DNA from: Terriglobia bacterium
GTDB lineage: Bacteria > Acidobacteriota > Terriglobia > Bryobacterales > Bryobacteraceae
Direction of reading: 5' to 3'
NCBI GenBank assembly: GCA_020073145.1
Contig: JAIQFS010000021.1
Span: 1 to 64,000, forward strand
Length of the DNA stretch: 64,000 nt
In this document: piece after piece, positions 36,571-59,725 of the stretch
How positions within the stretch are numbered: the first letter of the stretch is position 1
How the letters are laid out: each line of letters starts with the position of its first letter
Translations under genes and position numbers: made by a program
Notes under the pieces: model-generated
Database searches by the model: none
What the model saw: the letters and a program-made list of their open reading frames with translations, nothing else
What the model was told of the DNA's origin: nothing

Positions 36571-37467
36571 ATGTTCTTTTCAACGCGTAGGACGTTTCTG
36601 AGGACCGCCGCTGCGGGTGCGGTCGCCTCGCGCGCTTTCGCGCAGGCTGCAAAAATCGATACCACGCCACTTGGCGACAATCTCCACATGTTGACCGGCG
36701 CGGGCGCCAATATCCTCGCGTTCACCGGCGCCGATGGCGTCACTCTCGTCGATGGCGGCCTCGCGCAGAACGCTGCTGCGCTCGCCCAAGCCGTTACCGC
36801 GCTCCCCAAGAGCGGCCCGGTCCGCACGCTCTTTAACACGCACTGGCATCCCGAGCAGACCGGCTCCAATGCCACTCTGGGCGCCGCCGGCGTCGCGATC
36901 ATTGCCCACGAGAATACGCGCCTCTGGCTGCAGCAGAACATCACTTGGCCCTGGAATCATCAGACGTTCAAGAAGTTCCCCAAGGCCGCTCAGCCCAACA
37001 AAACGTTCTACGATAAGGGCGCACTCGATAGCGGCATCCGTTACGGCTACATCTCCGACGCCGCCCACACCGATGGCGACCTCTACGTCTACTTCCCGCA
37101 GCAGAACATCCTTGCTGTCGGTGACGCCGCCTACGGACAAGGCTGGCCGGTGGTCGATTGGTGGACCGGCGGATGGATCGGCGGCATTGTCGGCGGATTG
37201 CAGCGCATCCAGAGCGTCGCCAACAAGGACACCAAAATCGTTCCCGCGCAGGGCCCCCTGCTCACCTACGCCGACCTCGCCCTGCAGCTCGACATGTACG
37301 GCACCATCTACGATCGTCTGAACCAGATGATGAACAAAGGCCGCGGCCCCACCGAGGGCGTCGCCGCCAAGCCTGCCAAGGAATACGAAGCTAAGATGGG
37401 TAACGCCGACGAGTTCATCCGTCGTTCTTTCGAAAGTCTCTGGGCATATCTTTCACCGGACGCATAA
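36571..37467 (+). CDS. Tat-exported MBL-fold protein with altered metal site
   Basis: 298 residues. MFFSTRRTFLRTAAAGAVAS is a twin-arginine signal and fixes the start at 36571, although the frame is open to 36475. The MBL core is clear (NILAFTGADGVTLVDGGL, VRTLFNTHWH, DAAHTDGDLYVYFPQQNILAVGD), but the metal motif reads H91-W-H93-P-E95-Q96 where most members have HxHxDH. Loss of the Asp/His pair suggests one metal or a changed role. It is six bases before the DUF1592 gene, so it is the first gene of the plus-strand cassette and likely acts with it in the periplasm. The mirrored minus-strand cassette has no counterpart of this gene. Confidence 0.85.
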   Translation: MFFSTRRTFLRTAAAGAVASRAFAQAAKIDTTPLGDNLHMLTGAGANILAFTGADGVTLVDGGLAQNAAALAQAVTALPKSGPVRTLFNTHWHPEQTGSNATLGAAGVAIIAHENTRLWLQQNITWPWNHQTFKKFPKAAQPNKTFYDKGALDSGIRYGYISDAAHTDGDLYVYFPQQNILAVGDAAYGQGWPVVDWWTGGWIGGIVGGLQRIQSVANKDTKIVPAQGPLLTYADLALQLDMYGTIYDRLNQMMNKGRGPTEGVAAKPAKEYEAKMGNADEFIRRSFESLWAYLSPDA

Positions 37468-37473
37468 ACACTC

Positions 37474-39891
37474 ATGAAGACTATGCGGCACTTGAAGAAC
37501 ACGATTCCCCTGATCGCCGTACTCGGCCTGGTAGGCATCTTCACTGCCTCGCGCATTGGTCAGGCCCAGGACGCCGCGGCCCCGCAGCTCGCCACCGTCA
37601 AGCAATACTGCCAGGGCTGCCACAACGACCGGGCCAAAACCGGCGGCGCCAGCTTCGAAGGCATCACCGCAGCCAGCCTTGCTAAGGATCCGGAGCTCTT
37701 CGAGAAAGCCGTGAGAAAACTGCGCGGCCGCGTCATGCCGCCTCCCGGCGCCAAACAGCCGGACGGCAAAGCCGTCGACTCCCTGGTCGGCTGGCTCGAA
37801 GATTCGCTCGACAAGCTTCCCGAGCCCGGCCGCATCTCCGATCAACTGGTCCTCCACCGCCTGAATCGCGAAGAATATCAGAACGCCATTCACGATCTGC
37901 TGCTGGTCGACATCGACGCCGCCCAGATGCTGCCGCCCGACGATACCGCCCAGGGCTACGACAACATCGCTTCCGCCCTTCAGGTTTCGCCGTCGTTCGT
38001 GGAACAGTACGTCATCGCCGCGCGCAACGTGGCGCTGCTCGCTCTCGGCAGACGCGATTCCCGCCCGCAGGGCTGGACCTTCAAAGCCGGCTCCGGCAAT
38101 CAGCTCACCCACGTCCCCGGCCTGCCTCTCGGCACCCGCGGCGGCATCCTCGCCAACGTCGATCTCCCCGCCGACGGCGAATACCGCATCAACATCGCCG
38201 ACATGGCCACCCACATCTGGGGCAACGGCATGGAGTACGAAAATCCGCTGGTGGTCACGGTCGATAACAAGATCGTCTATAACACCGTCATCGGCGGCGA
38301 AGAGGACAACAAGCTCTACGATCAGGTGCAGAGCGGCGCCATGGATAAGGTCAACGCCCGCCTGAAGAATATTAAGTTCCAGACCTCCGCCGGCCCGCAT
38401 AAAATCGGCGTTGCCTTCCGCCGCCAGAGCTTCGCCGAGTCCGACGACCAGCTCCAGCAGTTCGCCCCCGGCGGCGGCCAGGATCGCCTCTACCGCGTCA
38501 ACCAGTTCCAGCTCCTTGGCCCCTTCGACGTCTCCGGCCTCAGCTCCACCCCCAGCCGCCAGCGCATCTTCGTCTGTGATCCGTCGAAGGACAAGAACAA
38601 AACTCCCGAGGCCTGCGCCCAGGAAATCTTCTCTTCCCTCGCCCGCCGCGCCTATCGCCGACCCGTCACCAAGGAAGATACCGCTGAGCTCATGAAGTAT
38701 TACGCCGATGGCGCCAAACGCGGCGGCTTTGAAGGCGGCGTTCGCGCCGGCATCACCGGCCTGCTCGCCAGCCCCATGTTCCTCTATCGCGGCGAGCGCG
38801 TCCCGGCCAACTTGAAGCCTGGCGACACCTACACCCTCACCGATCTCGAACTCGCGTCCAAGCTTTCCTTCTTCCTCTGGAACTCGCTCCCCGACGACGA
38901 GTTGCTCGATCTCGCCGGCAAAAACAAACTAAGCGAGCCCGCCGTGCTTTCGGCGCAGGTCCGCCGCATGCTGGCCGACCCGCGCTCCAAAACCCTGGCC
39001 GCCAACTTCGTTTTTCAGTGGCTCGATATGAAACGGCTCGACGACGTCATCCCCGATAACGACGTCTTCCCCTACGCCTCCGGCCGCATGGATCCGCGCC
39101 GCGATTTCCGCACCGAGCTCACTCTCTTCGCCGACAGCATCTTCCGCGAAGACCGCAACATCGTCGACTTGCTCCGCGCCAATCACACCTACTTGAATGA
39201 GCGCGTTGCCCTGCAGTACGGCATCACCGACGTCAAAGGCGATGAGTTCCGCCGCGTCGAGCTCAAGAACTCGGTCCGTTGGGGCCTGCTTGGCAAAGGC
39301 GCCATCCTCATGGCTGCCGCCTATCCCAACCGTACCTCCCCGGTGCTCCGCGGCAAGTTCATCTTGAACAATATCGTGGGCGTCCCTCCAGCCAACCCAC
39401 CACCCAACGTCCCCACTCTCAACGACAAGGATATCGGCACCCAGAAGGCCCTCACCGTCCGCGAGTTGATGGCCAAGCACCGTGCCAGCCCGGCCTGTTC
39501 CTCCTGCCACGCCGTCATGGACCCCCTGGGCTTCGCCCTGGAGAACTTCGATGCCACCGGAATGTGGCGTGACAAAGACCGCTTCGCCAATAGCGCGATC
39601 GATTCCGCGGGTGAACTGCCCGATGGCACCAAGCTCAAAGGGCCCGACGACCTCCGCAATGCCCTGCTCCGCCGCCCCGACCAGTTCGTTCAGACCTTCG
39701 TCGAAGGCCTGCTCACCTACTCCATGGGCCGCACCGAAGCCTATTACGATATGCCTACCGTCCGCAAAATCGTCCGCGAGACGGCCAACAAAGATTACAA
39801 GTTTTCGGCGATCGTCTTGGCCGTCGTGAATAGCGATCAATTTAAAATGCGCCGCGCGCCTCAGGCAACCCTGAGTGCCAGTAATCAATAA
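37474..39891 (+). CDS. DUF1592/DUF1588/DUF1587 dihaem cytochrome-like protein (copy A)
   Basis: 805 residues with a signal peptide (PLIAVLGLVGIFTASRIGQA). Domain order is that of the large planctomycete/acidobacterial family: N-terminal cytochrome-like region with CQGCHND, DUF1587 (RLNREEYQNAIHDLLLVD), a central carbohydrate-binding-like beta domain, DUF1595 (RRAYRRPVTKEDTAEL), DUF1592 (FFLWNSLPDDELLDLA), DUF1588 (YPNRTSPVLRGKFILNNI) with the second haem motif CSSCHAVMDPLGFALENFD, and DUF1585. Probable periplasmic electron-transfer or oxidoreductase protein; reaction unknown. It is ten bases before the DUF1552 gene. Same architecture as the minus-strand gene at 46902-49274. Confidence 0.9.
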   Translation: MKTMRHLKNTIPLIAVLGLVGIFTASRIGQAQDAAAPQLATVKQYCQGCHNDRAKTGGASFEGITAASLAKDPELFEKAVRKLRGRVMPPPGAKQPDGKAVDSLVGWLEDSLDKLPEPGRISDQLVLHRLNREEYQNAIHDLLLVDIDAAQMLPPDDTAQGYDNIASALQVSPSFVEQYVIAARNVALLALGRRDSRPQGWTFKAGSGNQLTHVPGLPLGTRGGILANVDLPADGEYRINIADMATHIWGNGMEYENPLVVTVDNKIVYNTVIGGEEDNKLYDQVQSGAMDKVNARLKNIKFQTSAGPHKIGVAFRRQSFAESDDQLQQFAPGGGQDRLYRVNQFQLLGPFDVSGLSSTPSRQRIFVCDPSKDKNKTPEACAQEIFSSLARRAYRRPVTKEDTAELMKYYADGAKRGGFEGGVRAGITGLLASPMFLYRGERVPANLKPGDTYTLTDLELASKLSFFLWNSLPDDELLDLAGKNKLSEPAVLSAQVRRMLADPRSKTLAANFVFQWLDMKRLDDVIPDNDVFPYASGRMDPRRDFRTELTLFADSIFREDRNIVDLLRANHTYLNERVALQYGITDVKGDEFRRVELKNSVRWGLLGKGAILMAAAYPNRTSPVLRGKFILNNIVGVPPANPPPNVPTLNDKDIGTQKALTVRELMAKHRASPACSSCHAVMDPLGFALENFDATGMWRDKDRFANSAIDSAGELPDGTKLKGPDDLRNALLRRPDQFVQTFVEGLLTYSMGRTEAYYDMPTVRKIVRETANKDYKFSAIVLAVVNSDQFKMRRAPQATLSASNQ

Positions 39892-39901
39892 GGAGACGAC
39901 C

Positions 39902-41188
39902 ATGTTCCTGTCTAAAAAACACGTTGACCGCCGCACGGTTTTGAAGGGTGTCGGCGCCGCCGTTGCGCTTCCGCTGCTCGATGCCATGCTTCCGGCCGGC
40001 ACGGCCTGGGCCGACACTGCCGCCGGAAAGACCGTGAAGCGTTTTGCCTTCGTCGGCTTCCCGCACGGCGCCATCATGGACCGCTGGTCCCCCAAGGAGA
40101 CCGGCACGAACTACACCATGTCGCCGATCCTGAAGCCCCTCGAGCCGTTCCGCAAGCACCTCACCATCGTCTCCGGCCTGCGCAACAAACCTGCCGAAAC
40201 GCCTGAGCCCCACGCCTACATCGAACAGGGCTGGCTGACCTGCCTGAAGCCATGGGACTTCGGCAAGACCGGACCCGATTCCGGCGTCAGCGCCGATCAG
40301 ATCGCCGCCCGCTACGTCGGCCAGGAAACCCGTCTCCCCTCTCTCGAGCTCACCTGCGGACAGGGCAGCGCGAGAATCGCATGGCGCACCCCCACCCAGC
40401 CGCTGCCCCAGGAAGGCAACCCGCGCGCCGTCTTCCAGAAATTATTCGGACAGGGCGACACCGATGAAGAGCGCGCCCAGATCCTCGCCGAGACCGGCAG
40501 CATCCTCGACCGCGTTCAGGGCGAAGCCCAGACTCTCCAGGCCAGCCTCGGCGTCCACGACCGCCACATCGTCGCCGACTATCTCGATTCCGTCCGCGAA
40601 ATCGAGCGCCGCGTCCAGATGGCCGAGAAAGCCAGCAACACCGAGCTCGTCATCCCGGATGCCCCCATCGGCACCCCCAACGAAATCACCGAATATCTGA
40701 AGTTGATGTTCGACCTCATGGCCCTCGCTTTCCAGGCCGACGTCACCCGCGTCATCACCTTCTCCATGGACCGCGAAGCCAGCATGCGCACCTACACCAA
40801 CCTCGGCATCGCCGAAGGCTTCCATCCGCTCTCCCACCACGGCAACAACCCGGAGAAGATGGATAAGCTCGTCAAGATTCAGAACTATCACGCCGAAGTC
40901 TTCTCTGGCTTCATCAAGAAAATCGAAGCCTCCAAAGAAGGCGACGGCACCGTGCTCGATCACAGCACCATCCTGTTCGGCAGCGACATGAGCAATAGCG
41001 ATCGCCACAACAACGATCCGCTGCCCTCCGCGGTTCTCGGCCACGCCAACGGCAAGATCAAAGGTGGCCAGCACCTGAAGTACCCCCAGGATTCGCGTCA
41101 TGGCGACCTGATCTTCACGCTCCTGGAGCGCAACGACATCCCGGTCAAATCCATCGGCGACAGCACCCAAGGCCTCTCGGAGGTTTAA
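39902..41188 (+). CDS. DUF1552 protein, Tat-exported (copy A)
   Basis: 428 residues. The DUF1552 family almost always accompanies DUF1592 proteins. Tat signal MFLSKKHVDRRTVLKGVGAA, ATG at 39902 with AAGGAG upstream. Family landmarks: FPHGAIMDRWSPKETG, LEPFRKHLTIVSGL, DVTRVITFSMDREAS, FHPLSHHGNNPEKMDKLVKI and STILFGSDMSNSDRHNNDPL. The sulfatase/alkaline-phosphatase-like fold and conserved His/Asp residues suggest a metal-binding hydrolase-like core, but no substrate is known. Two bases separate it from the ankyrin gene. Confidence 0.9.
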   Translation: MFLSKKHVDRRTVLKGVGAAVALPLLDAMLPAGTAWADTAAGKTVKRFAFVGFPHGAIMDRWSPKETGTNYTMSPILKPLEPFRKHLTIVSGLRNKPAETPEPHAYIEQGWLTCLKPWDFGKTGPDSGVSADQIAARYVGQETRLPSLELTCGQGSARIAWRTPTQPLPQEGNPRAVFQKLFGQGDTDEERAQILAETGSILDRVQGEAQTLQASLGVHDRHIVADYLDSVREIERRVQMAEKASNTELVIPDAPIGTPNEITEYLKLMFDLMALAFQADVTRVITFSMDREASMRTYTNLGIAEGFHPLSHHGNNPEKMDKLVKIQNYHAEVFSGFIKKIEASKEGDGTVLDHSTILFGSDMSNSDRHNNDPLPSAVLGHANGKIKGGQHLKYPQDSRHGDLIFTLLERNDIPVKSIGDSTQGLSEV

Positions 41189-41190
41189 TC

Positions 41191-42894
41191 ATGCGCAAGC
41201 TCGCGGCTGCGATCGCAGTCTTCACCATGGGGGTGTCGCTCCTCGCCGCCCCCGCCGCTCTCCCCACCGACCCCAGCCGCGCTCTCCTCGACGCCGCCGA
41301 ATCCGGTGACGGCGCCACCGCCATCGGTCTGCTAGCCGTCAAGGGCGTGAATGTCAACGCCGCCCAGCCCGATGGCACCACGCCGCTCATGTACGCCTCG
41401 GCCAACGGCGATCTCGGACTCGTCCGCGCCCTCATCAAGGCCGGCGCCAATGTGAAACTGGCGAACCAGCTGGGCACTTCCGCTATTACCGAAGCCGCCA
41501 TCATCGGCAACGCCCCCGTTCTCCAGGCGCTCTTGAAAGCCGGCGCCGACCCCAATTTCCGCACCACCAACGGCGAAACCCCGATCCTCGCCGCCGGACG
41601 TAGCGGCAAAATTGAGGCCGCCAAAGTCCTGCTCGACGCCGGCGCCGACATCAACGCCAAGGAAGGCTGGGGCGAACAATCCGCGCTCATGTGGGCCGCC
41701 GCGCAAAGCCAGCCCGACATGGTCAAGTTCCTCGCCTCCAAAGGCGCCAACCTGAACGACCACGGCAAGGTCAACCAGTGGGAACGCAAAATCATCCAGG
41801 AACCGCGCCCCAAAGACATGAATAAGGGTGGCTTCACCGCGCTCCACTACGCTGCGCGCGAAGGCTGCGCCGCCTGCGTTGACAATCTGTTGAAGGCCGG
41901 CGCCGATCCCGATTCCGAAGATCCCGACCGCGAGACGCCGCTGCTGCTGGCGCTCGAGAACCTGCATTTCGACACCGCCGCCGTGCTCATCCAGGGCGGC
42001 GCAGATCTCGATAAGTGGGACCTGTTCGGACGCTCGCCGGTCTACATGGCGGCTGACGTCAGCACCCTGCCGATGAAAGGCAACGGCGCCATGGCCGTCA
42101 TCCCCAGCATGGATAAACTCAGTGCCGTCGATGTGGCGCGCATGATGCTCGACCGCGGCGCGAACCCCAACATTCAGCTGAAGCGGCGTCCGCCGTATCG
42201 CGACGTCCCGCAGGATCGCGGCGGCGACGGCATGCTCGCCCAGGGCGCGACGCCCTTATTACGCGCTGCCCGTGGCGGCGATGCGCCGTTCGTCGCGCTT
42301 CTGTTGGAACATAAGGCGCTGGTCGATTTGCCGAGCAAGGAAGACATCACTCCGTTGATGGCAGCCGCCGGCGTTGACTATGGGACCCGCGCCACCCGCG
42401 GACGGAACCGGACCGAGGAAGGCGTCCTGGCCACCATGGATCTGTTGCTGAAAGCCGGCGCGAACATCAACGCCCGCTCGGTGGTCGACCGGTTCGCCGG
42501 AGGCCGCGGCGGCCGTGGCGGACCTCGAGGTGGAGGCCCTCCTGTCGCCGCACCGAGAGGCAGCGGCGGGCCTGACGACAGCGCCTCCGCGCGCATCGCC
42601 CAGACCTTCCGCCGCGGCAGTCAAATGCCGAGCGCCAACGCCGTCCCCAACCAAACCGCTCTGCACGGCGCGGCCGAACACGGCTTCGATAAGTTCATCG
42701 AATTCCTGGTGGCCCACGGCGCTGACCTGACCGCCAAAGACGCCAACGGCCGCACCCCCCTCGACGCCGCCCGGGGCGCTGGTGGTCAGCGCGGCGGCGC
42801 CGATGCATTCCCGAAGACCGTGGAACTGCTGGAATCCTTGATGAAAGCCACGGGCCTTCCGGCTGAGGCAGCGGCGGCACCTCCAGCGCGGTAA
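41191..42894 (+). CDS. Secreted ankyrin-repeat protein (copy A)
   Basis: 567 residues: signal peptide (AAAIAVFTMGVSLLAAPA), then ankyrin repeats of about 33 residues through most of the chain, e.g. DGTTPLMYASANGDLGLVRA, NGETPILAAGRSGKIEAAKV, GGFTALHYAAREGCAACVDN and NQTALHGAAEHGFDKFIEFL. A Gly/Arg/Pro-rich insert lies at about residues 435-465. Ankyrin arrays bind other proteins, so it probably docks onto the DUF1592/DUF1552 pair encoded just upstream (two-base gap). The mirrored operon ends in an ankyrin protein of the same length. Confidence 0.9.
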   Translation: MRKLAAAIAVFTMGVSLLAAPAALPTDPSRALLDAAESGDGATAIGLLAVKGVNVNAAQPDGTTPLMYASANGDLGLVRALIKAGANVKLANQLGTSAITEAAIIGNAPVLQALLKAGADPNFRTTNGETPILAAGRSGKIEAAKVLLDAGADINAKEGWGEQSALMWAAAQSQPDMVKFLASKGANLNDHGKVNQWERKIIQEPRPKDMNKGGFTALHYAAREGCAACVDNLLKAGADPDSEDPDRETPLLLALENLHFDTAAVLIQGGADLDKWDLFGRSPVYMAADVSTLPMKGNGAMAVIPSMDKLSAVDVARMMLDRGANPNIQLKRRPPYRDVPQDRGGDGMLAQGATPLLRAARGGDAPFVALLLEHKALVDLPSKEDITPLMAAAGVDYGTRATRGRNRTEEGVLATMDLLLKAGANINARSVVDRFAGGRGGRGGPRGGGPPVAAPRGSGGPDDSASARIAQTFRRGSQMPSANAVPNQTALHGAAEHGFDKFIEFLVAHGADLTAKDANGRTPLDAARGAGGQRGGADAFPKTVELLESLMKATGLPAEAAAAPPAR

Positions 42895-43264
42895 CCCCTG
42901 CAACCGGTCAAGCAGCCCGAAATTCCGGCCCTCGGAAACGGAGCTCGGCTCCGCGTCTGCCTGGCAACTCCGTCAGCGGAATGGTGAGGGTGCCGATTTT
43001 TCCCGACCTCAGGTTCCCCACCAGCAGTTTCAGTTCGACCGGCGCGGTCGCCTGCTGTCCGGGGGCGAACGGCGCAGTCGCCCAGAGAAGCTTGCCCCAT
43101 GCTCGCCCCCTGGCGCTCATGATACGGACCCTTCCACGGTTACGACCTCGCTCCCATCTTGGTCATCATACTTCCCGTCAGGGGAAGAGGGCTCAAGCGG
43201 AGCAATCGCCTGGGCCTGGCTGCTTTTGCGCGCCAGCTTGTCCGGCGGCCGGCCCGAGCGTTTC
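42895..43264. other. Gap between convergent ankyrin genes, possible gene relic
   Basis: About 370 bases between the two ankyrin genes. On the minus strand, an open frame without a start codon ends in a TGA that overlaps the ATG of the small open frame at 42908-43120, as in coupled genes; this may be a decayed gene. CTTCCC (43171-43176) and GGGAAG (43182-43187) form a small hairpin. No family recognised. Confidence 0.4.
42908..43120 (-). CDS. Small open frame, function unknown, possibly a remnant
   Basis: 70 residues beginning MSARGRAWGKLLWATAPFAP. AAGGG lies about nine bases before the ATG, and the frame contains a plausible beta-rich stretch (APVELKLLVGNLRSGKIG). It follows the minus-strand ankyrin gene by about 145 bases in the same direction. 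An equally long frame exists on the opposite strand, so this may not be a real gene. No function is proposed. Confidence 0.25.
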   Translation of the reverse strand: MSARGRAWGKLLWATAPFAPGQQATAPVELKLLVGNLRSGKIGTLTIPLTELPGRRGAELRFRGPEFRAA

Positions 43265-44968
43265 TTACTTCGGGCTCTTGCCTTGTTCTTTCACTGCCAG
43301 GCCGCCCGTGACGCCGTCCACCTGGTATCCCGTCTGAATCTTCCGCGCCTTGGCGATTTCCGCCGGTGTGGCGGTCTTGGGATCAACGTTCGCTAACGCG
43401 CAGGTGAAGCCGCGCAGGGTGCATTCGGAAGTCGTGTGCCGGATTCCCCGCTGTTTCATGGCGTCACTGATGAGCTTGACCACGTCCTCATGCAGGATCA
43501 CGGCGTTGTTCGGCACGAACGTGCCAACGCCGATCGCGTAATCCAATGGCATGAGCGGCTCAATGCTGGACCCGAATTGGCCGTCGTTCTTTTTGCCGAG
43601 GTCGTGGGCTCCCAGATCCGCGCCTTTCTCGATCAAATAGCGCACCACCCCGATGTCGCCCAAATTGGCGGCCACCATCAGCGGAGTAATCCCATAGCTG
43701 TCGGCGGCGTTTACATCCCCGCCGAGATCGATCAGCAGTTTGACCACCTCCAGGCGTTCGGCAGGCGGTTTCTGCCGGTGATAGCCATTGATGAATCCAG
43801 TGCCGCAAGCGGCCATGAGCGCGGTCTCCCGGTCGGACGAAACGATCTGCGGGTCCGCGCCATGAGCGAGCAGCAGCTTCACCAGTTGCAGGTCGCCGGC
43901 AAACGCGGCGCGCATCAGTGCCGTGGCGAACACGATTCGCGGCGAACCCTCCCGCATCCGCGCCCGGGGCGTCGAGTTCACCACCGCATTCGGATTCGCG
44001 CCGGCGTCCAGAAGCTTCTGGATGAGGGGAAACGGATCGGTGGTCACCATCCAGGGGAAATTCGGCGCCGTCTCCATGTTGCGGCGATCGACCGCCCAAA
44101 ATAGCGGCGTGAAGCGCTGGGCGTCCGCCTGGTTGACGTTGGCGTGGCGGGCGACCAAAAACGACGCGACCTCATAGCTGCCATTGAAGATCGCCAGGCT
44201 CAGGGCGTCCTTGCCGTCACCGCCGCGGGCGTTGAGGTTCGCCCCGGCGTCGGCCAGGAGATGCGCCGATTCCAGATCGTTCTCCCGCGCCGCGAACATC
44301 AGTGGAGTCAGCCAGCCGCTGGCGAATTCTTCGATGTCCTGGTTCGGTTTGGCGGTCACCGGGGACGTTCCCTCGAACCCCCGGCCCGATGCGGAGGGCA
44401 CGAAGTTCGATTTGACGTTGACGTCCGCCCCGTGCTCGATCAGCATCTTGACAATGTCCGGATGCCGCTCGGCAACCGCCCACATCAGCGCCGTCGTGCC
44501 GCCCCAGGTCTCTTTGGCGTTCACTTGCGCTCCGTGGTCGAGCAGAACCTTCACGGCGCTGATCCTGCCGGTGCGCGAGGCCATCATCAGCGCCGTGTCT
44601 CCGGAGCTCGTCAGATTCGAATTCGGATCCGCGCCGGCCGCGATCAACCGCTCCAGGATGGCCGCGTTTCCGTTGACGGAGGCAAGTTGCAGAGGCGTGG
44701 CGCCGGCCTGGGTGGCCGTTGCAACGCGGGCGCCGGCCCGGATCAGCAGATCGGTTAATTCCAGATCGTCTGCTTGCACCGCCCAGTGCAAGGCCGTGGC
44801 CCCGTCCACTTGAGCGGCGTTGACATCCGCCTTCTCCGAGAGGAGCTTTCGGACTGCCGCTTTGTCGCCGCGCATGGCGGCGTCGGCCATGTCGCTTCTG
44901 CTGGCGGCAGCGAGGGCCGCCGTCGAGAGCCACGCCATCACACAACACCGTGCAAAACGCCTCATCAT
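43265..44968 (-). CDS. Secreted ankyrin-repeat protein (copy B)
   Basis: 567 residues with a signal peptide (ARCCVMAWLSTAALAAASRS) and ankyrin repeats throughout: DGATALHWAVQADDLELTDL, AGATPLQLASVNGNAAILER, GDTALMMASRTGRISAVKV and YGITPLMVAANLGDIGVVRY. The C-terminal 90 residues differ (GFTCALANVDPKTATPAEIA) and include a pair of Cys (CTLRGFTC). It starts one base after the cytochrome gene's stop, as last member of a tightly packed four-gene operon. Same length and role as copy A, but sequence has diverged widely. Confidence 0.9.
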   Translation of the reverse strand: MMRRFARCCVMAWLSTAALAAASRSDMADAAMRGDKAAVRKLLSEKADVNAAQVDGATALHWAVQADDLELTDLLIRAGARVATATQAGATPLQLASVNGNAAILERLIAAGADPNSNLTSSGDTALMMASRTGRISAVKVLLDHGAQVNAKETWGGTTALMWAVAERHPDIVKMLIEHGADVNVKSNFVPSASGRGFEGTSPVTAKPNQDIEEFASGWLTPLMFAARENDLESAHLLADAGANLNARGGDGKDALSLAIFNGSYEVASFLVARHANVNQADAQRFTPLFWAVDRRNMETAPNFPWMVTTDPFPLIQKLLDAGANPNAVVNSTPRARMREGSPRIVFATALMRAAFAGDLQLVKLLLAHGADPQIVSSDRETALMAACGTGFINGYHRQKPPAERLEVVKLLIDLGGDVNAADSYGITPLMVAANLGDIGVVRYLIEKGADLGAHDLGKKNDGQFGSSIEPLMPLDYAIGVGTFVPNNAVILHEDVVKLISDAMKQRGIRHTTSECTLRGFTCALANVDPKTATPAEIAKARKIQTGYQVDGVTGGLAVKEQGKSPK

Positions 44969-44969
44969 T

Positions 44970-45515
44970 TCATTTGTCCTGATTCGTTCCCCAGACGCGG
45001 CCCAGCCACTCGACTAGGCGCTCCAATTCCTCATCCGATAACGTCGCGCCGCGCTCTCTCATATCCACCAAGGTGACCCGCCAGCCATCGGCCGAGTTGC
45101 GGACGCCCTGCACGCGCTCCAGTCCGTGACAGCGCGTGCAGGCTCGGTCCATCAGCCGCTTGGCCTCGGGATCCGAGAAGAACGCCGTGATCTCGGGCGG
45201 AATATACGTCCGCGGGAACGGTTTCGTGCTGGGCCCGAAGCGAGATGCCAGCCAGTCCAGCAGAACAGCCCGATCGGCCTCCGAGAGATCTGCCTCTCCC
45301 GCTTTGTGTTTCCCTGCGATTAGCTGCTGCCATCCCGCCCGGTCCAGCGCGAAGAACGCATAGTCGTCGATGCCATGGCAGGCGATGCAGTTCTTGCGGA
45401 TGACCTCCCACACCGGCCCATCCGGGCGCTGCACCTTCGGACGCGTGGCCCGCCCCCCGATTTGCGCGGCGAGCGGTGCTACCAGAAGCGGCAATAGAAC
45501 CAACGGCCACTTCAT
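44970..45515 (-). CDS. Secreted c-type cytochrome with two CXXCH motifs
   Basis: 181 residues with signal peptide MKWPLVLLPLLVAPLAAQ. Two haem-binding motifs, CIACHG (in RKNCIACHGIDDYAFF) and CTRCHG (in DRACTRCHGLERVQG), suggest a dihaem protein or a cytochrome plus haem-binding tail like those of planctomycete-type domains. The end (LSDEELERLVEWLGRVWG) is the helix typical of class-I cytochromes. It lies between DUF1552 (three-base gap) and ankyrin (one-base gap) genes and has no counterpart in the plus-strand cassette. Probably carries electrons from the DUF1592 protein. Confidence 0.85.
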   Translation of the reverse strand: MKWPLVLLPLLVAPLAAQIGGRATRPKVQRPDGPVWEVIRKNCIACHGIDDYAFFALDRAGWQQLIAGKHKAGEADLSEADRAVLLDWLASRFGPSTKPFPRTYIPPEITAFFSDPEAKRLMDRACTRCHGLERVQGVRNSADGWRVTLVDMRERGATLSDEELERLVEWLGRVWGTNQDK

Positions 45516-45518
45516 AAG

Positions 45519-46892
45519 CTAGAGCGTGAGCGGCGTGGTGCTGGAACCGAACGATTCCTCCAGCCCTATCGGTGCGCCCGCGGTATTATATTTGGGCGTT
45601 TGTTCGATGCCGTACTTGTGCAGCAGGCTCAGCAGCATGTTCGAGGTGCGCTCGGTATTGTCCGGGAACACGATGTGGCGGTTTCCCTGGAAGGTTCCGT
45701 CCAGGCCGCCAAGCAGGATGACGGGTACCTTGACATGCGCATGACGGTGGGAATTACCCATGTTGCTGCCCTTGTAAATCAGAACGTGATCCAAAATGCT
45801 GCCGTCGCCATCCGGGATCTTGCTCAACTTGTCCGCGAAGTACGCCAGGTTCTGGACGTGGTAGCGGTTCATCTTGGCGTAGTTGGCCACGTTTTCGGGC
45901 TTGTCCCCGTGGTGGGACGAGCCGTGCCACCCGCCGTTGAACCCGGAATCCGGAAAACTCGACCCGGAGAGATCCTTGCCCAGCATATAGGTCGCGGAGC
46001 GAGTCAGATCCCCCTCGAATGCGAGCGCTAGAATGTCGTACATCAGGCGGTAATGGACGGTCTTGTTTTGCGGAAGCCCGAACGGAATCTCTTCCTTGGG
46101 CTCTTTCACGTTCTTCTCCATCGCCAGATGGATGCGGCGCTCCAGTTCGCGGATATTCTCGAGATACCCGTCCAGGCGCGCCCGGTCTCCGGGCCCCAGA
46201 GGCCGTTTGAACAGCGAGATCTCCTGGGCCACCGAATCCAGAATGCTCGCGCTCTGCTTTCGACCGAGGCGCCGTTCTTCCGGTGTTGCTCCGTCGCCGA
46301 ACAAACGCTCGAAGGCTACGCGGGGGTTGACCTCAGTGGGAAGCGGCGTGACGGGCGAACTCCAGGAGACGCAGTTGGTGTATGCGCAGCTATAGCCCCA
46401 GTTGCAGTTGCCGAAATTCCCGTCTTCTTCGACTCCGAGCTGGATGGACTCGAGGATGGTATCCCGGCCGTGCTTCTTGGCGATCAACTGATCGAGAGTG
46501 ATTCCGAGATAGGGACTGACCGCGTTCCGGCGCGGGCGCGAGGCGGAGAGAAACACCGCCCCGCGAGCGTGGTCACCGCCCGGTTCCTCGGTGGTGGCCA
46601 TGGCCTCGGGCATATCCAGGCCGGTGATCATGGTCACGTAGCGTCGAAATGGCTCGAGCGGCTTCGCGATGAAGGAGAACTCGAAGTCGGCGCCTTCCTG
46701 AAGCGGGCTCCAGTAGCCGGGCGCCGCGCCGTGCGGGTGCCAGATCCCTACAAAGCGTCTCGCCGGGACGGCCGCCGTCTTGGCCAGCGGCGTCTGCGCC
46801 GGCACCATCGAATCGAGCAGCGGCAACCCCACCACAACTCCCGCCCCGCGAAGGAATGTCCGGCGCGGAATGAATTTCTTCGAGAGAAACAT
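45519..46892 (-). CDS. DUF1552 protein, Tat-exported (copy B)
   Basis: 457 residues. Tat signal MFLSKKFIPRRTFLRGAGVV, with AGGAGG five bases before the ATG. Landmarks parallel copy A: IWHPHGAAPGYWSPLQEG, LEPFRRYVTMITGLDMPE, DLTRSATYMLGKDLSGSSFP, WHGSSHHGDKPENVANYAKM and HVLIYKGSNMGNSHRHAHV. The His pair in SSHHGD and the Asn/His run near the end are shared by both copies and may bind metal. Nine bases after the DUF1592 gene. Periplasmic; function unknown. Confidence 0.9.
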   Translation of the reverse strand: MFLSKKFIPRRTFLRGAGVVVGLPLLDSMVPAQTPLAKTAAVPARRFVGIWHPHGAAPGYWSPLQEGADFEFSFIAKPLEPFRRYVTMITGLDMPEAMATTEEPGGDHARGAVFLSASRPRRNAVSPYLGITLDQLIAKKHGRDTILESIQLGVEEDGNFGNCNWGYSCAYTNCVSWSSPVTPLPTEVNPRVAFERLFGDGATPEERRLGRKQSASILDSVAQEISLFKRPLGPGDRARLDGYLENIRELERRIHLAMEKNVKEPKEEIPFGLPQNKTVHYRLMYDILALAFEGDLTRSATYMLGKDLSGSSFPDSGFNGGWHGSSHHGDKPENVANYAKMNRYHVQNLAYFADKLSKIPDGDGSILDHVLIYKGSNMGNSHRHAHVKVPVILLGGLDGTFQGNRHIVFPDNTERTSNMLLSLLHKYGIEQTPKYNTAGAPIGLEESFGSSTTPLTL

Positions 46893-46901
46893 CGATCCCT
46901 C

Positions 46902-49274
46902 CTATCTGCTCGCTCTTTGTACGGACTCTTTCGTTCTCATCTGGAACGGCGCACTCTTGATAATGCCCATCAGGATCGCCACAAACCGGTCATTGTCTTG
47001 ATCGGCATCCCGCACAATCGACCGGATTACCGGCATGTCTTCGTATTCTACGCCGCGCCCCAGCGCGAACGTCATCAATTTCTCGGTGACCATGCGCACG
47101 AACTGTGGGGAATAGTGCAGCAACGCCTGCCGCAACTCCACCGGACCATTCACTTTGGTGCCGTCCCACAAGACCGCCGACGTATCCAGCGGGACGCCGC
47201 CCTCGCCGCCCTGCTTGGTGCGCCACGATCCGTCGGCGTCGAAATTCTCCAATGCGAATCCGATCGGGTCCATGAGCTTGTGGCAACCGGCACACGGCTC
47301 GGCTTTCCGGTGCAGGGTCATCTGCTCTCGCAAGGTCATGATCTTCTTCCCGACATTCGTGTCCTCCAACGGCGGCACGTTCGGTGGAGGCTCCGGGGGC
47401 GGAGTGCCTAAAATATTCTCGAGAACCCAGACGCCACGCTTCACCGGGGACGTGCGGAAGTTTTGGACCCACGTGAGGGAAAGAACACTCCCTTGTCCCA
47501 GCAATCCCCGGCGATAGTTCAGATCCGGGCCGAGATGCACCCGCCGGAACTGCGACCCATAGATGTTCGGAATGCCGTAATGCTTAGCGAGCCGCTCGTT
47601 CAGAAACGTGTAATCGGCGGTCAGAAGGTCGACTACGTTGCGGTTCTCTTTAATGATGCTTTCGAACAGCAATTCGGTCTCGCGGCGGAGACTCTTGCGC
47701 AGTTCGTCGTCCCAGTTGGGGTAGAACACGCCATCGGGCGACGTTGCCGGCAGATTCCGCAAGTACAGCAACTGATCTCCAAAGTTCGTCACCAGGGCGG
47801 CGGCCTTGGGATCGTCGAGCATCCGCCGCACCTGCTTTTCCAGCACGGCCGGAGTATGGAGCTGATTGCGGCTGGCCACGCCGATCAACTCGTCGTCGGG
47901 AATGCTGCTCCACAGCAGGAACGACAGGCGGGAAGCCAGTTCCAGATCGGTAATCCGGTACGGCCGGCCCGGCGCCGTATTCTCCGGCTCCCGCTCGGCC
48001 CGTACCAGAAACTGGGGGCTGGTGAGGATGCGGCGAAGCCCCAATTCGATTCCGTCCTGAAACGTCCCGTCCCGCCGCCCTTCCTGGTAAGCGCCCAGCA
48101 CCCAGTCCATGTCCACCGGCGTCACCGGCCGGCGATAGGCGTGCCGCGCCAGCGTGCTCAGAATCTGCCGCGCGCACGGACTTTCCTGCGCGGCGCTGTC
48201 CGCCCGGCACGTGTACACCTTGCGCACGCTGGGCGAGTCTTCCGGCCGATTCGCCTGGAAGGGCCCGCGAATCCTCAGAGTGCCGACCGCCGGGTAATAC
48301 TCGATCTGCGGGATCGGATTGTCCTCGAGCGACTTCCGTTCAAACTGGCGAATCAAGTCGAGGGAAGGCCGGTAGTTGTCAGCCAGGAACGTGACGCCCA
48401 CCAGGTGAGAGCCCGCTTTCACGGGAACGCTGATATCAATCGAGCCATCGTGATCCGCGGCATTGGCCGCGGTCAGCCCCACGCCCTTATAATCGCGGAG
48501 CGCCACTCTCTCGCTGTCGATCAAAAACTCCAGTTTCTCTCCCGGTATGAATTTGCCGAGACCGAAGTTCTGCACGGAGAACCGGTACTCTCCATCCGCG
48601 GGGAACATGTGGCGAACCGCCATCCCGCCGCGCGTTCCCAGCGGCAATCCGCCGATGTGCTGGTTCTGTGAAGTGTCGGCGGGCGCAATATAGGCGGCCT
48701 CCGTGGGCGATTTCCAGAAACCCACCGCCATCCGGGCGATGCGGGCGGCGGCCCCGCTGTAGGCCTCCAGCAACGTCGGCGAGATGGTCAACGAACCGGC
48801 GACGTTGTCGAAGCCGCGCGCGGAGTCGTCTGGCGGCAGCAGCGTCGTCACGTCCACCTGGAGATCCAGCAGGTCGCGGATGGCGTTCGCGTACTCGGTT
48901 CGGTTGAGACGATGGAGCACCACCGAACCGGGACTCGCACGCCCTGCCGCCTTCTGGTCGATCTGCGCCTCGAGCCAATCGCGGATCTGTTCGTATTGCG
49001 CCAGCGGCGGCCGCGGCATTCCGGGAGGCGGCATCATCCCGGCGCGCAATTTGCGGATCACCCGCTCCCAAACCTCGGGGTGATCGCCCGCCGTGTTGAG
49101 GTCTTCTTTTTGCAGCGAGAAATTCGCGGTCTTGGTTTTGTCGTTATGGCAGGTGACGCAGTAACGGTCTATTAAGGAACGCGCGGAGGCCGCGGATTGA
49201 GCGCGGGCCTGCCCAGCCACGGTGACCAGCCCAAGGACCGCCAAACCGTAAACGAGAGTCGTCCTCTTTCCCAT
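46902..49274 (-). CDS. DUF1592/DUF1588/DUF1587 dihaem cytochrome-like protein (copy B)
   Basis: 790 residues from the ATG at 49274 (GAGGG six bases upstream; frame is open to 49319). Signal peptide TLVYGLAVLGLVTVAGQARA. First haem site CVTCHND, DUF1587 (RLNRTEYANAIRDLLDLQ), central beta domain, DUF1595 (RHAYRRPVTPVDMDWVL), DUF1592 (FLLWSSIPDDELIGVA), DUF1588 with second haem site CAGCHKLMDPIGFALENFD, and DUF1585. First gene of the minus-strand operon with DUF1552, cytochrome and ankyrin genes, all gaps under ten bases. Reaction unknown; the two haems point to electron transfer. Confidence 0.9.
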   Translation of the reverse strand: MGKRTTLVYGLAVLGLVTVAGQARAQSAASARSLIDRYCVTCHNDKTKTANFSLQKEDLNTAGDHPEVWERVIRKLRAGMMPPPGMPRPPLAQYEQIRDWLEAQIDQKAAGRASPGSVVLHRLNRTEYANAIRDLLDLQVDVTTLLPPDDSARGFDNVAGSLTISPTLLEAYSGAAARIARMAVGFWKSPTEAAYIAPADTSQNQHIGGLPLGTRGGMAVRHMFPADGEYRFSVQNFGLGKFIPGEKLEFLIDSERVALRDYKGVGLTAANAADHDGSIDISVPVKAGSHLVGVTFLADNYRPSLDLIRQFERKSLEDNPIPQIEYYPAVGTLRIRGPFQANRPEDSPSVRKVYTCRADSAAQESPCARQILSTLARHAYRRPVTPVDMDWVLGAYQEGRRDGTFQDGIELGLRRILTSPQFLVRAEREPENTAPGRPYRITDLELASRLSFLLWSSIPDDELIGVASRNQLHTPAVLEKQVRRMLDDPKAAALVTNFGDQLLYLRNLPATSPDGVFYPNWDDELRKSLRRETELLFESIIKENRNVVDLLTADYTFLNERLAKHYGIPNIYGSQFRRVHLGPDLNYRRGLLGQGSVLSLTWVQNFRTSPVKRGVWVLENILGTPPPEPPPNVPPLEDTNVGKKIMTLREQMTLHRKAEPCAGCHKLMDPIGFALENFDADGSWRTKQGGEGGVPLDTSAVLWDGTKVNGPVELRQALLHYSPQFVRMVTEKLMTFALGRGVEYEDMPVIRSIVRDADQDNDRFVAILMGIIKSAPFQMRTKESVQRASR

Positions 49275-49394
49275 CGGCATCCCTCGTGAACGCACCGTTT
49301 CCCCCGGATTGCCTGTCACGTTTACTTCCCCCAGATCATGACACCACCCGGCCCCCTAAGCAACCGTCGGCCCCCCGGGAGGCGCCAGACTTGC

Positions 49395-55441: not shown

Positions 55442-55827
55442 GCCGGTACTCTTGTTCGACGCAGTATATCATTTCTCGAAATTTAACGTGCGATTGACGT
55501 ACCGGCTATGCCGCTGATTCTACAACCGCATGCGGCATCCTTTGCAATTGATTCCAATCCATCCCTGGTTTCTAACTGCGCTTTAACGTCGCGGATAACG
55601 TCCCGTACGTAGACGCCGCGCTCCACCAGCCATAGAATCCCCCAATCCGGTGTGTTCTGTGACCATCGCCCTGAATGCACCGGGCGGCTAGGGGTTTTCG
55701 TGACACGACATTCTGGCGCGCTGGTCTTCTGCCCACTTTGCCGGCGCGGCTTTTCCCAGCTTCGTTGGGGTCAGACAGAGGTCGTTCGCATTGTTGGGAA
55801 GCCACATGGAGAGGATTCACAAGTAAA
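55442..55827. other. Divergent intergenic region, no gene recognised
   Basis: 386 bases between the membrane-anchored regulator and the TonB-receptor gene. On the minus strand, a TATACT-like -10 lies about 20 bases before the regulator's ATG. Short open frames crossing this region, including an upstream extension of the receptor frame to 55675, have no family-like sequence. Confidence 0.4.
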
Positions 55828-58800
55828 ATGCTAAAAGTTCGTACCATCGCGCTGTTTCTGGCCGCGACGGCCTCGGCCGCCCTGGCCCAAACCGGTTTGG
55901 CCACCTTGACCGGCATCGTGACTGACCCGGCGGGAGCCGTGGTGCCGGGCGTTACGATCCGGGCGACGCACCGCGAAACGGGAACCGTCTTGTCGGCGGT
56001 CGCCTCCAGCACCGGCAATTACATCCTCACCCAGATGCCCATCGGCGGCTACACCCTGACCGTAGAGGCGGCTGGCTTTAAGACCTATCGTCGCGAGGGG
56101 TTGACCCTGGCCGCCGCCCAGGTTCTGGGCTTGGACGTGGCGCTCGAAATCGGCGCCACCACGGACTCGGTGACCGTGAACGCGGAAGCGTCCTTGCTGA
56201 CCACGGAAGAGGCCTCGATCGCCCACAATGTCACCGTGTCCCAGATGCAGAACCTGCCGCTGCTGCCCTTGAACGGCGGGGTGGGCTCCATCGCGGCGTT
56301 CGGCTTCCGCGATCCTTATGGCCTGGCCCAACTGATTCCAGGGGTGCAGTATTCCGTGAACAGCGTGATGGTGATCGATGGCAAGTCGACCAACAGCGTG
56401 CAGTACCGGATTGAAGGCCAGAACAGCGGGCTGACCGGTAACCTGGGGATCTTTACTCAATTTACGCAACCGAGCACGGACGCCGTGGAAGAGGTGGCAG
56501 TGCAGACCAGCAATTTTGCGCCGGAGTTCGGCTCGGTCGGCGGCGGCATCTTCAACGTGACCATGAAGTCGGGCACCAACGGGTTGCACGGCAGCGCGTA
56601 CGACTACGCGGTGAACGAAGTCCTCAACGCCCATCAATCGTTCACCCACCTGCGCGATGCCGACCACCGCCATGACTTCGGGATGACGATCGGCGGACCC
56701 GTCACCCTGCCCAAGATCTACAACGGAAAGAACAAGACTTTCTTCTTCTTCAGCTTCGAGCAGTTCCGCACCCAACCCCTGGTGACCACCGTGTCGGCTA
56801 CGGTTCCCACGCAGGCCTATCGCAACGGCGATTTCTCGGCTCTCATCCCCGCCAGCGGCGTGAATGGGGTGGGCCGCCCTCTCCTGGTGGGCTCGGGGGC
56901 CTCCCAGCACGCCTACGTGGACCCGCTGGGAGCCACCGTTCTGGCCGGCACGATTTTCGATCCGTACAGCACCAAATCGGTCACCTGCGGGGCCGGTAAC
57001 CCCGACTGTCCCGCCGGCAGCGTTTTGCAGTACCGCAGTCCGTTTCCGAACAACGCGATTCCCCAGGTAGCCCCGTACGTGGATCCGGTGTTTGCCAAGG
57101 TCCAGGGTCTGATTCCACTCCCTGTGGGTCCCAACGCGAGTGCCGGCGCCCTGGGGAACAATTTCCAGAGCCCGTTCCATTCCCAGCGCGTCTCCACTCT
57201 GCCATCGGTGAAGATGGATCACAACTTGACCGCAAGGTCCCGTCTTTCGTTTTATTGGAGCTATGACGAGACCAATGCCCAGTACACGCCGGGCAACGGC
57301 GCGTTTGAAGGCTTCCCCCCCACCATCACAGCGGCGCGCGGCACCTTCCACAACTCAACCCAAACCCGCCTGAACTACGACAACACCCTGTCACCGACGC
57401 GCGTGCTCCATGTGGGATTCGGCTTCGTGCGGTTCGATTTCAAGGACTTCTCACCGACCTTGGACTACAACGCGCAGCAGAGCCTTGGATTGACGGGCGC
57501 GACCTTGAACCGCCTGTTCCCGAACTTCGTGTCGGGGTCCTCGGCGACCGTGGGCGGTTTCAGCACAACCGGCGCAGCGGCGCAAACCACCCTCGGCAGC
57601 GAGCGGCGTCCCTCCGCCACCGTCAGCATGACCGAAGTGCGCGGGAACCACGCCGTGAAGTATGGGGCGGAGTGGGGAGAGCCCCGCTACCCGGCGAGCG
57701 TCTTCACCAACACAGCCGGCAACTACGCATTCACCAGCGTCGTTGCAGGCATCGCGGCGCCCACGGGCAGCGGCGTCACGGCGCAACCCGCGCTCCAGCC
57801 CGTGACTCTCTCCCAGGGAAACACCGGCTTCGGCTACGCGAACTTCATGCTGGGCGGCGTGCAGGCCGTCGACGTCGCCGTACCGGCCGTGTACCGCACC
57901 CATCGATATGAGTTTGCGCTATATGTCCAGGACACCTGGAAGGTCAGCCGCAAGCTGACCTTGGACTACGGCCTCCGCTGGGACTACGGCACGTATAACA
58001 AAGAGGATTACGGCCGGCTGGGCGACTTGAGCTTGATCACGCCGAACCCGTCGGCGGCCGGACTACCGGGCGGTCTGGTCTATGAGGCGAATTGCAACTG
58101 CAGCTTCGCTCACAATTATCCGTTTGCGTTCGGCCCGCGCCTCGGCGCCGCCTACCAGGTGAATTCCAAGACCGTGCTGCGCGGCGGCGTGGGCGTCGTG
58201 TACGACCACCCCCAGTGGTTTGGCGCAGGGATCACCAACGACGCTACCGGCGGCGCGCCCGGATTCGGCCAGCAGATCTTCCAGCTCAGTTCCGGGATTC
58301 CCTTCAGCATCAGCCCGCAGTGGCCGGTTTACAATGCCGCGATCGGACAATCTCCCAATACGGTCATCGGCGCCCCCGCGCTCATCGATCCGAATGCGGG
58401 CCGCCCGGCGCGGCAGCTCCAATGGCAGCTCAGCTTGCAGCGAGAAATCAGCAGGAACCTGGTTGTCGAAGCTTCGTACGTGGGGAACCGCACCACCTGG
58501 GCGCCGGCCGCCGCGCTTTCGAGCTTCAATGACATTAGCCCAGCCTTGCTGGCCAAATACGGTTTCAATGTCGGTGATCCGAACGACCGCGCCTTGCTCC
58601 TCTCGCAGGTCGGCAATCTCACTACCGCCCAGAAAAACACCCTGGCGGGGAAGGGGTTCATCCTGCCGTGGGCCAGCTTCCCGGGGAGTCAAACCGTGCG
58701 CCAGGCCATCCGGCCCTTCCCGCAGTACAACACTTCGATCAACCCGACCGCAGCCCCCTTAGGCAAGACCTGGTACGATGCGCTCCAGGTCACGCTGACC

Positions 58801-59598: not shown

Positions 59599-59725
59599 CA
59601 CCCCACTGACGCTAGAAACGGGCCGCTGCCTGCACCCCCAGGCGCGGTCCGATCCCCACGATGGCGTAGACTGGATCGAAGGCCGCGCGCCCGGGCGGGG
59701 CCAGCTTGGCGGAATGGGAACTCTG

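Follow-up and report, generated by a model that had tools for sequence, protein, structure and literature searches.

The window analysed here is a stretch of 64,000 nucleotides (positions 1 to 64,000, forward strand, of contig JAIQFS010000021.1) from the genome of a Terriglobia bacterium. Two operons, here called A and B, face each other in this window, and each contains genes for a DUF1592 dihaem cytochrome, a DUF1552 protein and an ankyrin-repeat protein, a set that we call the cassette. The data support well that the cassette is a real, widespread, multi-copy module that forms a unit: DUF1592, DUF1552 and a dedicated ankyrin family are inherited jointly, in many diverged copies per genome and in several phyla.

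Operon A lies on the plus strand. It begins with an accessory gene for a metallo-beta-lactamase (MBL)-fold protein of the twin-arginine translocation (Tat) type (36571..37467; 298 aa; PF00753, 6.5e-13), whose reading frame is open from 36475 and which is matched weakly by TIGR04559 (SoxH-related; 56 bits against a cut-off of 280). It is followed by the DUF1592 dihaem cytochrome (37474..39891; 805 aa), in which Pfam finds the domains cytochrome_CBB3, PSD3, PSD5, PSD4, PSCyt3 and PSD2, by the DUF1552 (HXXSHH) protein with its Tat signal (39902..41188; PF07586, 7.2e-91), and by a probably secreted ankyrin protein of the cassette type (41191..42894; 567 aa; Ank_2, 3.7e-54).

Operon B is read from the minus strand. 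Its first gene encodes the DUF1592 dihaem cytochrome (46902..49274; 790 aa; assigned by Pfam), for which an in-frame GTG at 49319 is a possible other start. Downstream are placed the Tat-signal-bearing DUF1552 (HXXSHH) protein (45519..46892; PF07586, 1.2e-77), an accessory dihaem c-type cytochrome with two CxxCH motifs (44970..45515; 181 aa) which matches PF09098, the haem domain of quinohaemoprotein amine dehydrogenase (3.2e-9), and the cassette-type ankyrin protein (43265..44968; 567 aa; Ank_2, 1e-66). The gene positions and family names of a preliminary description of this DNA were borne out by the open reading frames (ORFs) and by Pfam, and so were the equal length of the two ankyrin proteins, the Tat signals of both DUF1552 proteins and the statement that the gaps inside each operon are of ten bases or less (6, 10 and 2 bases in A; 1, 3 and 9 in B). 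Scans for promoters and terminators gave no more than the chance level.

In both DUF1592 proteins of the window a c-type cytochrome domain is followed by DUF1587, DUF1595, DUF1592, DUF1588 (which holds the second CxxCH) and DUF1585, and both have the PSCyt3-family order PSD3, PSD5, PSD4, PSCyt3 and PSD2 after the cytochrome domain. PF07586 covers the full length of both DUF1552 proteins, which also share the twin-arginine motif RRx[F/V]L. NCBIfam has no name for the DUF1592 or DUF1552 proteins of the window, and the earlier remark that no reaction is assigned to these families still stands, even if a model now allows a name to be given to the DUF1552 fold. A role in anti-phage defence was considered and rejected, as the core proteins are without match to defence models: PADLOC gave no match in six of the operon proteins and matched the two ankyrin proteins only with repeat-type models.

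Linkage and inheritance of the cassette genes

We examined 156 DUF1552 genes, taken from the source genome, from 80 named contigs and from 40 regions of the same phylum. Of the 572 relatives confirmed in GTDB contigs the best 80 make up the named contigs, a set that therefore favours close relatives; the 40 phylum regions were picked from the places found in 34 genomes so as to spread over families and are not a random draw. Genes were called with a codon model trained on the source genome, and cases cut by contig or region ends (5 for the pairing and 15 for the ankyrin) were counted as undecidable. The contig titles of the relatives include Acidobacteriota, Gammaproteobacteria, Gemmatimonadota, Verrucomicrobia, Planctomycetota and others, some of which (Acidimicrobiia, Klebsiella) look misassigned.

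DUF1592 adjoins DUF1552 in 148 of the 151 decidable cases (3 no, 5 undecidable), which supports, far beyond the window, the co-occurrence claimed earlier. A cassette-type ankyrin gene is adjacent to DUF1552 in 129 of 141 decidable cases (12 no, 15 undecidable); the counts of present, absent and undecidable were 15/1/1 in the source genome, 84/1/5 in the named contigs and 30/10/9 in the phylum regions. The families are thus linked, where a finding that they are usually unlinked had been named beforehand as what would refute the earlier interpretation. Among 199 genomes of the phylum, DUF1552 was found in 34 and PSCyt3 in 35, all of the 34 being within the 35.

Mapped onto a tree of all 156 DUF1552 proteins built with FastTree, the presence of ankyrin requires only 4 changes. 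A deep outer group and a single inner clade lack the gene, for which reason the core DUF1592-DUF1552 pair is considered to stand without it, and within the large clade it is hardly ever lost. Pfam found no extra domain in 10 DUF1592 proteins from loci without a seen ankyrin (nine decided as ankyrin-less and one, L118, undecidable), and the possibility of a fused domain standing in for the ankyrin was rejected.

The source genome (6,321,548 bases in 88 contigs, rated 100% complete) contains 17 DUF1552 genes and 18 PSCyt3 places. One of the latter is broken, being a DUF1592 remnant in two pieces on a small contig (L024:7179-8558) that has no DUF1552 or ankyrin. DUF1592 directly adjoins 16 of the 17 DUF1552 genes; at the exception, L020, three genes and about 4.4 kb separate the two. 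The ankyrin gene is adjacent at 15 of the 17 loci, with L019 lacking it and L012 cut by a contig end; it encodes 468-617 aa, and in 12 of the 15 cassettes it comes after DUF1552 and shares its strand, whereas in the other 3 it is placed before DUF1592. The whole genome has 19 ankyrin ORFs (the ORFs counted under 83 matches), only 4 of them outside cassettes, and by rough arithmetic fewer than one of 19 scattered ORFs would be expected beside the 17 loci by chance.

Among the 15 complete cassettes of this genome the three genes diverge in step, with Mantel correlations of 0.732 (DUF1592-DUF1552), 0.765 (DUF1592-ankyrin) and 0.757 (DUF1552-ankyrin), each at p 0.0005. Since all 15 cassettes reside in one genome, shared species history does not explain this agreement.

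Both operons had been described as two paralogous copies. They are indeed both real, yet they are only 2 of the 17 loci and do not derive from one duplication. Operon A groups with a locus of the same family in another genus (L145), where MBL, DUF1592, DUF1552 and ankyrin genes are ordered as in A with 77-82% identity (77% for the DUF1592 protein, 82% for DUF1552, and 77% for the MBL protein in the equal operon position). Operon B belongs to a nine-member clade in which every locus has the dihaem cytochrome (8 of 8 relatives), in contigs titled Acidobacteria and Gammaproteobacteria, of which some titles look misassigned. Each copy is distinguished by one accessory gene, as had been noticed, and this gene is retained in relatives. 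In similarity to A, B ranks 13th of 14 for both DUF1592 and DUF1552 and 7th for the ankyrin, so that few pairs of the own-genome set are less alike. A recent local duplication was rejected on this ranking and on the closer orthologues found elsewhere, and the comparison of A with B that had been proposed to date the duplication makes little sense because the two belong to old separate lineages.

Some features of the other loci deserve mention. At one B-type locus (L027) no ankyrin was found in the available DNA. Two further B-type cassettes (L029 and L030) are in contigs titled Klebsiella or Gammaproteobacteria, the Klebsiella title looking wrong, and are followed by a gene whose N-terminus looks like that of a tryptophan-halogenase-type flavoprotein. 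In L129 and L135, which come from two genomes of a single genus, three DUF1592-DUF1552-ankyrin cassettes follow each other head to tail, and tandem pairs occur, for example, in L067, L068, L069, L072, L074 and L095, whose titles are Gemmatimonadota or relatives. A secreted-looking family with the motif PRTxDGKPxL and without a Pfam name lies near the cassettes in 22 loci (e.g. L042:6439-7227 and L011:1422-2177) and clusters with DUF6152-like proteins.

Around the two cassettes (30550-54155) the window also encodes a glucuronoyl-esterase/GDSL protein, an aldo-keto reductase, a pyrroloquinoline quinone (PQQ) alcohol dehydrogenase, a CE1-like esterase, a tannase/feruloyl esterase, a flavin adenine dinucleotide (FAD) monooxygenase, presumably hydroxybenzoate-hydroxylase-like, and a LysR regulator. 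This is possibly a region for lignin-carbohydrate or phenolic-ester compounds. The L145 region likewise encodes a PQQ dehydrogenase at 55% and a tannase-like protein at 33% identity, which are too diverged and too distant to be conserved neighbours; the idea that the cassette belongs to a lignin or feruloyl-ester operon was rejected, these families being rare over 137 loci, and is kept as a lead only. Farther on, an ASST-type arylsulfotransferase (59453-61096) is placed beside a large outer membrane protein resembling TonB-dependent receptors (55675-59598).

Predicted structures and conserved motifs

Two CxxCH motifs are present in 134 of 138 long DUF1592 proteins, including both copies of the window. 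This, together with export signals recognised by sequence, agrees with the earlier proposal that redox parts are located in the periplasm. In the DUF1592 protein of operon B the first motif (model residues 46-50; 49146..49160, minus strand) is kept in 99% of 69 sequences and the second (residues 668-672, in PSCyt3; 47280..47294, minus strand) is invariant in them. An AlphaFold 2 (AF2) model of this protein, built from the 69 sequences, reached a mean predicted local distance difference test (pLDDT) value of 89.2 and a predicted TM-score (pTM) of 0.90. In the stretch from DUF1587 to DUF1595, which is free of Pfam matches, it predicts a beta-sandwich (residues 197-349; 48249..48707, minus strand) resembling carbohydrate-binding module (CBM) families CBM35 and CBM6. 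The best fold matches of these residues were CBM35, CBM6 and CBM36, with Z up to 9.8 in VIA (root-mean-square deviation (rmsd) 3.2 over 107 residues) and, in Foldseek, a probability of 1.0 with a best E of 4.7e-3. Because unrelated jelly rolls reach Z 8.8, we regard the carbohydrate-binding-like character of the predicted sandwich as a good lead and not as a proof.

The motif GTRGG in this CBM-like region was tried as a docking site for the ankyrin. It occurs in 102 of 113 ankyrin-bearing loci and in 2 of 10 ankyrin-less ones (Fisher p 2.8e-6), but the tree offered only 4 independent pairs and the sign test was empty, and the motif was rejected as evidence.

In DUF1552 the twin arginines R10-R11 are invariant in the 17 copies of the source genome and in all 73 aligned sequences, and HxxS/THH was found in 148 of 155 proteins. 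The HXXSHH motif of operon B (H323, H327 and H328; 45909..45926, minus strand) has its first two histidines in 100% and the third in 98-99% of the 73 sequences, and the six histidines H108, H323, H327, H328, H384 and H406 are conserved in 97-100% of them; H280 and H345 also belong to the conserved histidines. The AF2 model of this protein (73 sequences; pLDDT 85.3, pTM 0.89) has a predicted fold of the alkaline phosphatase/sulfatase type: Foldseek placed that superfamily on top (3lxq, E 1.1e-4, TM 0.35-0.39), and VIA gave a sulfatase at Z 16.2 (rmsd 4.3 over 271 residues), tied with phosphodiesterases and other superfamily members. After strand 370-375 the B protein reads GSNMG, at what we take to be the place of the metal-binding Asp-His or Asp-Asn of the superfamily, which may mean that DUF1552 has a changed metal site. 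No convincing relative of solved structure was found by PDB sequence search. A kinship with DUF1501 by profile was rejected as weak (hhalign probability 3, E 0.014), the C-terminal motifs being the parts that align.

The cassette ankyrins form a family of their own. With a model built solely from the cassettes of other genomes, the 15 cassette ankyrins of the source genome scored 383-652 bits (456.6 for operon A and 591 for operon B) against 84-207 for the 4 others. A simple hydropathy rule placed a hydrophobic N-terminal segment over the threshold in 86 of 93 cassette ankyrins, with that of operon B just under it (1.75 vs 1.8). Three of the 4 non-cassette ankyrins carry CxxCH segments and squalene-hopene-cyclase-like repeats within one chain. 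These fusions are located at L156:670-2958, at L157:540-2768 (minus strand), where a clear PSCyt1 domain is present (E 1.8e-12), and at L159:1507-3501 (minus strand); in two of the three Pfam reported no cytochrome domain, and for L157 no relatives were found at E 1e-60 in the other 98 genomes searched. In this way all but one of the 19 ankyrin ORFs have a link with cytochrome-like genes or segments, either by operon (15) or by fusion (3).

Proposed function and alternative explanations

Our preferred interpretation, which is a tentative one, is that the cassette encodes a cytochrome-c oxidoreductase which works in the periplasm on material of the saccharide type and which has the ankyrin as its dedicated assembly or haem chaperone or scaffold. 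The chemistry, the substrate and the role of the ankyrin are what we infer; this choice follows from the sandwich domain, the published link of the Cbp2D core with cellulose use, what He et al. 2017 suggested, and the additional cytochrome of B-type operons as a way out for electrons. Because the pair persists without the ankyrin, DUF1592 and DUF1552 would be the working core. DUF1592 would grip a saccharide-type substrate by its sandwich domain and use its two haems to hand electrons on to a soluble cytochrome, from which they would reach the respiratory chain; in the B type this acceptor would be the dihaem cytochrome encoded in the operon itself. DUF1552 would fold in the cytoplasm and be exported by Tat, a route common among cofactor proteins, and could provide the active or substrate-presenting site, probably through its conserved histidines. 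The ankyrin may be a dedicated periplasmic helper that delivers haem to the DUF1592 cytochrome, folds it or holds it, and the diverged copies might serve different substrates. In the most speculative step, the product would be processed by the MBL-fold protein of operon A, which might be a lactonase.

A bolder version of the same idea, possible but doubtful, is that these cassettes represent an unrecognised modular class of periplasmic oxidoreductases, the redox counterpart of polysaccharide-utilisation loci. Here DUF1552 and the sugar-gripping DUF1592 would oxidise saccharides or their aromatic esters, each copy being tuned to one substrate and its private ankyrin loading or guarding the haems.

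Several observations weigh against an oxidoreductase for saccharides assisted by the ankyrin. The reaction, the substrate and the protein interactions are all putative. C1q and other jelly rolls come close to the CBM families in matching the sandwich (Z 8.2-8.8 vs 9.8), for which Foldseek gave no match at E 0.001, and the sulfatase match of DUF1552 has TM-scores of only 0.3-0.4. The ankyrin alignment is conserved chiefly at repeat-consensus positions, with no conserved pattern of haem ligands, and the absence of this gene from 12 of 141 decidable loci marks it as dispensable. Moreover the neighbouring genes give no steady substrate: among 95 proteins next to the loci of the source genome no single Pfam family is shared by more than 5, and within 6 kb PQQ dehydrogenases were found in only 12 of 137 loci and tannase-like proteins in 3 of 137.

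The preliminary description had favoured the ankyrin as a scaffold. As a permanent one it would be a stoichiometric subunit joining DUF1592 and DUF1552 in the periplasm, which we find somewhat improbable. The divergence of the ankyrin does track DUF1552 (r 0.757) as closely as DUF1592 (r 0.765), and the ankyrin forms its own family and, in 12 of 15 own cassettes, lies downstream of DUF1552 in the same orientation; however, the DUF1592-DUF1552 pair occurs without it in those same 12 of 141 loci, a whole clade included, and in the searched set no ankyrin is fused to DUF1592 or DUF1552, the fusions of the source genome being with CxxCH segments. It is unlikely that the cassette forms a hydrolytic complex in which DUF1552 is a phosphatase-, sulfatase- or phosphodiesterase-like enzyme, DUF1592 recruits it to a polymer and the haems have a sensing or minor function. 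The predicted sulfatase/phosphodiesterase fold, the hidden CBM-like domain and the near-complete conservation of the six DUF1552 histidines would suit such a complex, yet the two haem motifs are kept nearly always, B-type operons add another cytochrome, GSNMG stands where we presume the metal ligands of B DUF1552 to be, and hhalign gives a probability of just 3 for kinship with DUF1501.

The cassette might instead pass electrons outward to copper-dependent lytic polysaccharide monooxygenases (LPMOs), as proposed for Cbp2D, with which it shares the X132-type core (DUF1587 and CxxCH) and whose cytochrome domain reduces LPMOs according to the available part of PMC8981238. We consider this highly unlikely, since the genome has no LPMO_10 match at E 0.001 despite its 17 loci (other LPMO families being unsearched) and the window proteins have no fused CBM2 or YceI domain in Pfam. 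Numerous diverged paralogues with unrelated neighbours could also result from expansions of a selfish or regulatory kind that play no part in catabolism and serve, for example, stress or envelope maintenance, and the available part of PMC2754498 lists a secreted DUF1552 protein of Rhodopirellula baltica among stress-regulated genes. Against this explanation, which seems quite unlikely, speak the strong conservation of all parts, the 77-82% identity of the whole A operon between genera and the existence of orthologous lineages with fixed accessory genes.

Comparison with known systems

Some soil and aquatic bacteria encode numerous diverged copies of DUF1592 and DUF1552, and the pairing of these families is already in print. 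In the available excerpts of He et al. 2017 (PMC5615132), PSCyt3 genes of Verrucomicrobia and Planctomycetes usually adjoin a family of unknown genes, which by the present data would be DUF1552, and a carbohydrate role was suggested because some PSCyt3/PSD proteins are fused to CBMs. Those proteins share the PSCyt1-3 and PSD1-5 domains with the cassette; those excerpts have zero mentions of ankyrin, whereas the cassette has an ankyrin as third gene. What is added here is this third gene, a putative CBM-like sandwich hidden in proteins without a named CBM, and the predicted fold of DUF1552. The ankyrin member was found in none of the open-licence PMC papers searched; a subscription paper could hold it. 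The third member, the modelled DUF1552 fold and the putative substrate-binding module turn two co-occurring families of unknown function into a testable three-protein module.

The cytochrome core is also common to Cbp2D of Cellvibrio japonicus. This protein has DUF1587 and an X132 part containing CxxCH, its knock-out retards growth on cellulose (PMC8981238, PMC12542752), and Cellvibrio needs it to grow well on the insoluble polymer. Cbp2D and the Teredinibacter proteins TERTU_2913 and TERTU_3803 are presented in the parts available (PMC8981238, PMC10916295, PMC12542752) as secreted X183-X132 redox proteins. Such proteins and the window DUF1592 proteins alike combine a c-type cytochrome domain with DUF1587 and with a core in which another CxxCH is found. 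They differ in that the Cbp2D type is fused to CBM2/CBM10, YceI-like or other domains, while Pfam finds no CBM2 or YceI in the window DUF1592 proteins, and the same excerpts mention no DUF1552 or ankyrin partner. X183 was not found with the window cytochrome domain by PDB sequence search. An analogous pair is the PSCyt2/PSD1 system, DUF1549/DUF1553 with DUF1501; in the source genome PSD1 is located directly before DUF1501 at L147 and L148.

The cassette ankyrin is most likely a helper in assembly or haem supply, or a scaffold, and AnkB-KatB and Cj1386-KatA are precedents for this. In these and in Leptospira ank-katE an ankyrin gene belongs to a haem-enzyme operon, and AnkB is periplasmic, according to the available sections of PMC7567364 and PMC9426514. 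The partner of AnkB and Cj1386 is a catalase, whereas that of the cassette ankyrin is the c-type dihaem cytochrome DUF1592. The cassette offers a small system for testing how generally the ankyrin proteins of bacteria serve haem proteins.

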